Assembly: GCA_937929935.1 (NCBI GenBank)
Contig: CALFUL010000004.1
Span: forward strand, 124,001 to 188,000
Direction of reading: 5' to 3'
Origin: an uncultured Flavobacteriaceae bacterium
GTDB lineage: Bacteria > Bacteroidota > Bacteroidia > Flavobacteriales > Flavobacteriaceae
Length of the DNA: 64,000 bases
Within the stretch, counting starts at the first letter, position 1. Each line of letters opens with the position of its first letter. Under the pieces are notes generated by a model. That model saw only the letters and a program-made list of their open reading frames with translations, made no database searches and was not told the DNA's origin. Of the stretch, positions 22,451-43,270 are shown piece by piece. The position numbers and the translations under genes are program-made.

Positions 22451-22519
22451 GATTCTATTTTAACGGTTTTGTTGTAATCAACATTCACGATTTTCGTCAG
22501 AGGTTGATTTAACAGTGTG

Positions 22520-37797: not shown

Positions 37798-39258
37798 ATG
37801 CTGCTACAAGAAATCAAAAATATTTATCATCAAGAATTAGCTATTTTATACGGTAAAGAAGAAGTGGCTAGTTTCTTTTATTTAGTAATTGAGCACTATT
37901 TGAAACTAGAACGATTTGTACTTGCGCTGCAGCCAGATTTAATTGTGTCAAAAGAAGAGGAGCAACCATTATTCGTTGCCCTTTCAAAGTTAAAATTACA
38001 AGAGCCTATTCAATATATTTTAGGAACTACCCATTTCATGGATATGTCTTTCAAAGTCAATGAACATGTTTTAATACCCAGACCAGAAACTGAAGAATTA
38101 GTACGCTGGGTATTAGCTAAAGTACAGCGTAAAAAAAACATCAAAATACTTGATATAGGCACAGGTAGTGGTTGTATTGCTATTGCGTTGGCCAAGAATA
38201 TTCCAAATGCTGAAGTTTTTGCGATAGATATTTCTGTAAATGCCATTCAGATTGCAAAAGAAAATGCAAAGGCTAACAAGGTAAGAGTGCGGTTCATACA
38301 TAAAGATATATTTGAACTTGAATTAAAAGAGCAATTTGATATTATAGTATCTAATCCGCCTTACGTTAGAAATAACGAAAAAGAAAAAATGCATGATAAT
38401 GTTTTAAAGTATGAACCGCATCAGGCTTTATTTGTACCAGATGATAATGCCTTAAAGTTTTATAAAACCATCGCCGCTTTTGCCAATCAAAATTTAGTGC
38501 CAAACGGAAGTCTATTTCTTGAAATAAATGAATTTTTAGCAGCCGAAACTGAAGCACTTTTGATTGAACATAATTTTTCGGAAATTGAACTTAGAAAAGA
38601 TTTGTTTGAGAAAGATAGAATGGTGTTGGCGAAGATTCCTTATACCTTAAAACAACAAAACAGTAGTATGAATAAACTAACAAGCATCGTCGTATTCTGC
38701 GGAAGTAGCGAAGGGGCGAACCCTCAATACGTGCAGCAAGGATATGCTTTAGGTAAAACCTTAGCCCAAAAGAAAATCACTTTAGTTTATGGTGGCACAA
38801 AAATTGGAATCATGGGCGCCGTAGCAAAAGGAGCCTTAGAGGATGACGGAAAAGTTATTGGTGTCATTCCTGATTTTTTAAAAATTCGTGAAGTTTTTCA
38901 TACGAATCTGACCGAGTTGATTGTAACACAAGACATGCATGAACGAAAATTGAAAATGCATGAGCTCTCTGATGGTATTATAATGCTTCCTGGTGGCTAT
39001 GGTACATTAGAAGAGTTTTTTGAAATGTTAACTTGGGGTCAATTAGGTTTGCATCAATACCCAATAGGGGTGTTAAATACAAACGGTTTTTATACTGAAC
39101 TTATGACCATGTTGGCCAAAATGGTGGATCAGGGTTTTGTGAAAAAAGAAAACTTTGATATGATTTTAGTTGATGCGTCTATTGATGACTTATTGTATAA
39201 AATGAATAATTACAAGCCCTTACCCGTACCAAAGTGGATTAAAAAAGAACAACTTTAA
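37798..39258 (+). CDS. prmC: PrmC release-factor glutamine methyltransferase fused to a LOG-family phosphoribohydrolase
   Basis: 486 residues in one open frame. Residues 1-290 are PrmC: helical N-terminus, EEPIQYILGTTHFMDMSFKV, VLIPRPETEELV, SAM loop ILDIGTGSGCIAIAL and the catalytic NPPY in IIVSNPPYVRNN. It methylates the Gln of the GGQ motif in release factors. From Met291 (ATG 38668) MNKLTSIVVFCGSSEGANP begins a LOG protein with YGGTKIGIMGAVAKGAL and LPGGYGTLEEFFE, the active motif of enzymes that cleave nucleoside monophosphates. The linker PYTLKQQNSS is short. LOG could also be made separately from the internal ATG. ligA follows 45 bases later. Confidence 0.88.
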   Translation: MLLQEIKNIYHQELAILYGKEEVASFFYLVIEHYLKLERFVLALQPDLIVSKEEEQPLFVALSKLKLQEPIQYILGTTHFMDMSFKVNEHVLIPRPETEELVRWVLAKVQRKKNIKILDIGTGSGCIAIALAKNIPNAEVFAIDISVNAIQIAKENAKANKVRVRFIHKDIFELELKEQFDIIVSNPPYVRNNEKEKMHDNVLKYEPHQALFVPDDNALKFYKTIAAFANQNLVPNGSLFLEINEFLAAETEALLIEHNFSEIELRKDLFEKDRMVLAKIPYTLKQQNSSMNKLTSIVVFCGSSEGANPQYVQQGYALGKTLAQKKITLVYGGTKIGIMGAVAKGALEDDGKVIGVIPDFLKIREVFHTNLTELIVTQDMHERKLKMHELSDGIIMLPGGYGTLEEFFEMLTWGQLGLHQYPIGVLNTNGFYTELMTMLAKMVDQGFVKKENFDMILVDASIDDLLYKMNNYKPLPVPKWIKKEQL

Positions 39259-42372: not shown

Positions 42373-42397
42373 AAATGTACACATTATAACTATCTTT

Positions 42398-42424
42398 AGC
42401 CCTGATTAAATCAGGGCTTTTTTT
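42398..42424 (+). terminator. Rho-independent terminator ending at the next start codon
   Basis: AGCCCTGA and TCAGGGCT pair around TTAAA and are followed by a seven-base T-run that reaches the ATG at 42425. It ends the START-like gene; for the next gene it would act as an attenuator. Confidence 0.88.
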
Positions 42425-43270
42425 ATGATTAATTTTAACGGAAAGTTACTTCAACAAAACTCAAATTTCTTAAACCAAGAGAATCGAGCCATTCGTTTTG
42501 GCGACTCACTTTTTGAAGAACTAAGAGTAGTTAATAACAAGATTATTTTCTGGGAAGACCATTATTTACGACTAATGGCTTCAATGCGTATTTTACGGAT
42601 GTCAATTCCGATGGAATTTACCATGGAGTTTCTTCAACAAGAAATTTTGAAAACCGTTGCTACGAATGATGAACATAAAAGCGGAAGTATTGTTCGTTTT
42701 GTAGTGTATAGAAATACAGGTGGCGATTTCTTACCTGAAACTAATGACATAACATATATCATTGAATGCAACCCACTTTCATCATCATTCTACTTGTTAA
42801 ATGAGAATCATTATGAAATTGAGTTATTCAAAGATTTTCTGGTTAACAATGACTTAACCGCAACCTTACAAACCAATAATAGTATCATTAGGGTGGTAGG
42901 AAGCGTTTACGCACAAGAAAATGGCTATCAGAATTGCCTGTTGCTAAATGCCTCTAAAATGGTAGTTGAAGCCTTAAACGGAACTATTTTTATGGTAAAT
43001 GGTAATGTGATCACCACACCTTCGCTCAAAGATGGTTGTTTAAACAGAATACTAAGAAAAAAAATAATTGCTATTTGTACCAAGATAGAAGGGTATGAAA
43101 TACACGAAAAAAGTATTTCTCCTTTTAACCTTCAAAAAGCTGATGAACTCTTTATTGTTCACGTGAAAAACGGAATTCAACCTGTAACCAAATACAGAAA
43201 GAAAATATTTGGTAATACGGTAGCTGCTGATATATTGGGTAAATTGAATGCTGCAGCAAAACTTTCTTAG
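42425..43270 (+). CDS. Class IV aminotransferase homologue lacking the PLP lysine
   Basis: 281 residues, fold type IV PLP family (branched-chain aminotransferase, PabC, D-alanine aminotransferase). Family features include INFNGKLLQQNSNFLNQENRAIRFGDSLFEELRV and the C-terminal FNLQKADELFIVHVKNGIQPV. At the position of the Schiff-base lysine, in the L-K-x-x-N stretch, it has LQTNN with Gln149 (codon CAA). The Glu of VVEALNGTIFMV is kept. Without the lysine normal transamination is unlikely, so it may be a binding protein or use another residue. The ATG directly follows a terminator T-run. Confidence 0.85.
   Translation: MINFNGKLLQQNSNFLNQENRAIRFGDSLFEELRVVNNKIIFWEDHYLRLMASMRILRMSIPMEFTMEFLQQEILKTVATNDEHKSGSIVRFVVYRNTGGDFLPETNDITYIIECNPLSSSFYLLNENHYEIELFKDFLVNNDLTATLQTNNSIIRVVGSVYAQENGYQNCLLLNASKMVVEALNGTIFMVNGNVITTPSLKDGCLNRILRKKIIAICTKIEGYEIHEKSISPFNLQKADELFIVHVKNGIQPVTKYRKKIFGNTVAADILGKLNAAAKLS

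Follow-up and report, generated by a model that had tools for sequence, protein, structure and literature searches.

The window analysed here, a stretch of 64,000 nucleotides from an uncultured Flavobacteriaceae bacterium, carries at 42425-43270 (+ strand) a real and intact open reading frame of 281 amino acids, whose product we interpret from Pfam, NCBIfam, AF2 and Foldseek comparisons as a probable displaced PabC (aminodeoxychorismate lyase) pseudoenzyme with a Lys-less class IV fold. Its immediate upstream neighbour encodes a START_2-domain protein (PF19569; 41989-42372, + strand), an arrangement found at all Lys-less Flavobacteriaceae loci examined, and it is followed by a convergent gene for a YqgE/AlgH-like protein (PF02622; 43267-43827, - strand), with the PabC-YqgE gene order also occurring in other families of the order. 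A terminator-like hairpin with a T run (gccctgattaaatcagggcttttttt, 42395-42427) abuts the ATG of the gene; in two related loci (L057 and L058) about 50 extra bases lie between the terminator and the start, those of L057 including a TAnnTTTG-like element, and judged by its upstream sequence the window gene may be without a promoter of its own.

Membership of the 281-residue protein in class IV is clear from its match to Pfam Aminotran_4 (PF01063), which scores 132 bits against a cut-off of 28.5. Among NCBIfam models it most resembles pabC_Proteo (TIGR03461), at 109.9 bits and thus below the curated cut-off of 176.85, which the Lys-bearing orthologs likewise fail to reach (138.9-139.2 bits). 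At the position of the PLP Schiff-base lysine that an active PabC possesses, codon 149 (42869-42871, + strand) reads CAA and places a Gln within ATLQTNN, as the initial annotation had recognized in describing a class IV aminotransferase homologue lacking this residue. The AF2 model of the protein nevertheless predicts an intact fold (pLDDT 94.3), and its top Foldseek matches are all class IV enzymes, including E. coli ADCL (PDB ID 1et0, TM 0.82), in agreement with a two-domain fold type IV structure. Even the most diverged copy (L224) is modelled with a pLDDT of 86, such that the predicted fold is still present at 25% identity. We considered whether another lysine might occupy the right place and found none: the nearby Lys136 is the only invariant candidate, and as it is also invariant in the active, Lys-bearing relatives we rejected it as a substitute.

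A survey of relatives at site 149 reveals how unusual this residue is. Lysine is present in 25 of 26 orthologs in one alignment (A1), the window copy being the sole exception, and in 63/68 Flavobacteriaceae orthologs in a second (A3), where the five exceptions carry Asp, Ser or Asn and come from Croceivirga-type genomes and one MAG; the cultured Croceivirga thetidis is among the independent genomes with the same loss. All other members of the window genus that have the gene, and most Flavobacteriaceae, possess Lys149. The window protein is 66% identical to its Lys-bearing relatives, shares with them the START-gene-YqgE locus, and is nested in the gene tree with three Lys-bearing sequences (clade support 100/96), so that by tree and by locus it is orthologous to the only PabC candidate of those relatives and is a PabC by descent. 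Maximum-likelihood gene trees need 4-6 changes between Lys and non-Lys states, and the number is at least 6 once long rows and 18 active-site columns are removed. Trees constrained to join the window copy to one or the other of two nearby Lys-less groups were rejected (AU p 0.03 and 0.02), and a tree uniting all Lys-less copies in one group was not quite rejected (AU p 0.06). It is therefore very likely that the lysine was lost multiple times, and very likely also that its loss in the window copy was independent of the other Lys-less copies.

The loss extends well beyond Lys149. We compared 45 Lys-bearing and 27 Lys-less rows (alignment A6), taking the cofactor-contact residues from an alignment with E. 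coli ADC lyase rather than from coordinates. The window copy is changed at six sites that show 100% conservation among Lys-bearing orthologs, namely R89I (codon ATT, 42689-42691, + strand), Y102F, N187T, G208R (codon AGA, 43046-43048, + strand, in the phosphate-binding loop and a region aligned with NGIMR of E. coli ADCL), and T245V and N246H, where Val-His replaces Thr-Asn (43157-43162, + strand). The earlier remark that the other family blocks remain thus holds for Glu182 and Arg49, which are still present, but not for these six positions. Across the 27 Lys-less rows, Arg89, Tyr102 and Lys149 drop from 100% to 0%, and Gly100, Thr245, Gly208, Tyr25, Phe30 and Glu182 drop to 12-33%, with position 149 itself occupied by Q, D, E, N, S, P, L, H, Y or F depending on the copy.

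Despite this erosion of the active site the gene is not simply rotting. Two Lys-less sisters that both carry Asp149 (L071 and L072) show a dN/dS of 0.11-0.14 and no gaps. In a branch codon model the tip branches of Lys-less genus pairs have an omega of 0.058 and Lys-bearing branches one of 0.039, and omega=1 is rejected with a difference of 348 lnL units. For the window tip the corresponding difference is 12.9 lnL units, but its branch omega is unreliable because dS is saturated there. After normalisation, changes at the first, second and third codon positions amount to 0.195, 0.138 and 0.407 on the window branch, compared to 0.04-0.11, 0.01-0.055 and 0.26-0.39 on its sister branches, which are clearly less relaxed. 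No stops or frameshifts were found in more than 25 Lys-less copies examined. A protein whose catalytic set is lost while its predicted fold is intact, and whose Lys-less relatives are under purifying selection, conforms to a pseudoenzyme, one of two options put forward in the initial annotation; the other, a recent loss, does not agree with at least six further active-site residues being gone and with the same loss recurring in relatives under purifying selection.

What took over the lyase activity is suggested by a second locus. In addition to IlvE, the window genome (a 3.1 Mb, 85% complete assembly) possesses on a different contig a short pabB-pabC pair (C26:16626-17958), whose PabB exceeds the NCBIfam cut-off for aminodeoxychorismate synthase component I (449 vs 275 bits). 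Among 24 genomes picked by similarity of the class IV gene studied here, the short PabC is present in 5/6 Lys-less versus 0/18 Lys-bearing genomes (Fisher p 1.4e-4, kinship ignored); a phylogeny-corrected test of the association has low power, with 2-3 usable pairs. The short PabC was not found in any of the 14 other genomes of the window genus. In the converse search 29 of 400 Flavobacteriaceae genomes matched the short PabC, from which we left out one whose match is a weak piece of an 859-aa frame in a genome that keeps Lys (G583) and one that is the same genome as another in the set (G651, identical to G428). In the 26 remaining cassette genomes besides the window genome, the ortholog is kept in 21, and all 21 lack the lysine; from the other 5 the ortholog is missing. 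Examples of outright gene loss with the cassette present are G680, which has YqgE directly after the START gene, and G453, G630 and G681. The ancestral PabB, a protein of about 430-460 aa whose closest NCBIfam model is pabB, shows the mirror image, being present in 17/18 Lys-bearing genomes and in 0/6 Lys-less genomes, which have TrpE instead. Moreover, in seven Lys-bearing genomes IlvE is the only other class IV protein, leaving the present gene as the sole candidate for their PabC. The simplest interpretation is that the cassette displaced both the ancestral PabB and the ancestral PabC, a trigger that was not foreseen in the initial annotation. Two genomes deserve separate mention. In a 2.6 Mb MAG (G427) the ortholog is Lys-less, with Asn149 and Gln at 182 (L100), and neither the ancestral PabB, nor any other PabB, nor the short cassette was found, reflecting either an assembly gap or another route to p-aminobenzoate. 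In another genome two short PabC copies (L157 and L172) lie about 6 kb apart on one contig (G613:C1).

While the active site is dismantled, a set of non-cofactor residues stays. The most prominent stretch is the motif FWEDHYLRLMASMRILRMSIPMEFT (residues 42-66; 42548-42622, + strand), in which Tyr47, Arg55, Arg58 and Ile61 are, together with Asn166 and Phe234, at 100% in both the Lys-bearing and the 27 Lys-less rows of alignment A6. Some twenty further residues reach at least 88% in the Lys-less rows, and the set that stays includes Glu44, His46 and Glu165. These invariant residues could in part be fold core. Among the other families of the order that were sampled, both Lys and motif are present in six (f3, f4, f7, f10, f12 and f14), the motif is kept without Lys in a seventh, Weeksellaceae-like by character (f5), and Lys is present without the motif in two more (f8 and f11). 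The Lys-less, motif-bearing state is family-wide in f5 (L264, L267, L268, L269 and L273), whose copies are 87% identical with a divergence of 0.05 at codon position 2 versus 0.47 at position 3. Lys and motif therefore dissociate both ways, such that neither the enzyme fold nor catalysis depends on the motif, and the motif can be retained without catalysis. This pattern speaks for a second function that is PLP-independent and older than the loss of Lys. Judging from these patterns of conservation, we consider it very probable that the protein performs another, cofactor-free function, and this function is probably one of binding or scaffolding. The residues to which we would assign it are HYxxLMxSMRxxRMxIP, ENxxxxxLLN and SPFELQKADE. 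The absence of the gene from some cassette-bearing lineages indicates that the second function is dispensable there. As the conserved non-catalytic residues are common to Lys-less and Lys-bearing proteins, the role is probably not one acquired after the loss, contrary to the suggestion of a new role made from the window alone.

We also considered functional coupling to the START_2 protein, without adopting it. In family f5 the locus was checked in L268 and has START_2 upstream and YqgE downstream; the f8 and f11 genes adjoin YqgE without START_2, except that for one copy (L270) neither neighbour is in reach. The START_2 gene persists where the class IV gene has been deleted, and a motif-bearing copy of family f7 (L247) has no START_2 adjoining it, for which reasons the linkage is only suggestive.

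Taken together, we consider it likely that the window gene is an ancestral PabC that was displaced by the cassette, is catalytically dead, and is kept as a folded PLP-independent protein with a second function. The starting point would be a PLP-dependent 4-amino-4-deoxychorismate lyase, the original PabC of flavobacteria, which the Lys-bearing form presumably still is. A short pabB-pabC cassette would then have arrived and taken over from both the ancestral PabB, which is no longer present, and the lyase activity of PabC, and this displacement would have preceded the loss of Lys. Freed from catalysis, the old PabC could then have lost its Schiff-base lysine and most cofactor and substrate residues, with the folded protein kept for another role, probably in binding or scaffolding, which would reside in residues common with the Lys-bearing enzymes, i.e. 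the helix 43-56 (Tyr47, Arg55) with Arg58, Glu165/Asn166, Asn175/Lys178 and Phe234. That Flavobacteriales PabC in general has two functions, lyase and a conserved PLP-independent activity served by the motif, and that the cassette on its repeated, independent arrivals kills the lyase only, is a broader proposal towards which we lean with less assurance.

Other explanations fit parts of these data. A displaced and functionless PabC on its way out, with its conservation reflecting only the slow decay of a stable fold, would explain why several cassette-bearing and mostly small genomes have lost the gene outright, why some Lys-less copies sit on very long branches, and why relaxation is greater on the window branch than on its sister branches; we nonetheless regard such a relic as unlikely, considering the strong purifying selection between Lys-less sisters and throughout family f5, the way in which a family-specific set of residues is selectively retained as those of the active site disappear, and the reading frames that remain open in every Lys-less copy examined. 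Still less probable is a new PLP-independent catalysis in the old pocket, or PLP that is still bound non-covalently. The fold and part of the pocket (Arg49 and Glu182) do remain in the window protein, but Glu182 is lost in most Lys-less copies and position 149 varies by copy, and with pocket replacements differing from one copy to the next no new conserved active site is visible. Finally, CAA is one base from AAA and the source is an incomplete MAG, so that a sequencing or assembly error had to be weighed, as the initial annotation had allowed for a sequencing error. It has next to no probability and we consider it ruled out, given that the same copy differs at no fewer than six further active-site positions that are otherwise invariant, that the genome has the replacement cassette and is without the ancestral PabB, and that the same loss recurs in independent genomes, a cultured species among them.

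Compared to known systems, the window protein is similar to E. coli PabC (PDB IDs 1et0 and 1i2k; TIGR03461) in its fold, full-length alignment, closest NCBIfam resemblance, and retention of Glu182 and Arg49, but differs in lacking the Schiff-base Lys and several active-site residues and in its sub-cut-off score; the Lys-bearing orthologs, the only PabC candidate in many genomes, also score below the PabC cut-off. With branched-chain and D-amino acid aminotransferases (PDB IDs 5ce8, 5e25 and 1daa) it shares fold type IV (TM 0.82-0.89), at about 20-24% identity only, without the catalytic set, and in a genome that has a separate IlvE. A precedent for a homologue of PLP enzymes that is without the lysine yet retained in a non-catalytic capacity is SPTLC1 of serine palmitoyltransferase, a fold type I protein whose partner is an active, paralogous subunit. 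The window protein is similar in being Lys-less and retained, but belongs to another fold type, and no such paralogue was found here, only the distant short PabC. In the literature searched we found no description of a PabC pseudoenzyme. The unexpected aspects are the recurrence of the loss and, alongside it, how strictly a set of non-catalytic residues is conserved. If our reading is true, a widespread and undescribed pseudoenzyme family is currently annotated as ‘aminotransferase class IV’. Many flavobacterial genes so named cannot be PLP enzymes, and their annotation would be corrected, as would metabolic models with respect to which gene makes p-aminobenzoate. Lineages with lyase and motif, motif only, lyase only, or no gene form a natural separation-of-function series, which would reveal that a housekeeping folate enzyme has another, hidden role.

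Several minor observations were made along the way. A flavobacterial ortholog (L098, CALPUN020000049.1) occurs in a record titled as a Bifidobacterium breve MAG, which is probably mislabelled or contaminated. Elsewhere in the window, an L19-Flavobacteria ribosomal protein leader (22479-22506, - strand) scores over the Rfam gathering threshold and is ordinary, and a 486-aa frame (37798-39258, + strand) is an unusual fusion of PrmC (release factor glutamine methyltransferase, TIGR03534; residues 29-276) and a TIGR00730/LOG-type Rossmann protein (residues 296-472), both halves of which exceed their curated cut-offs.
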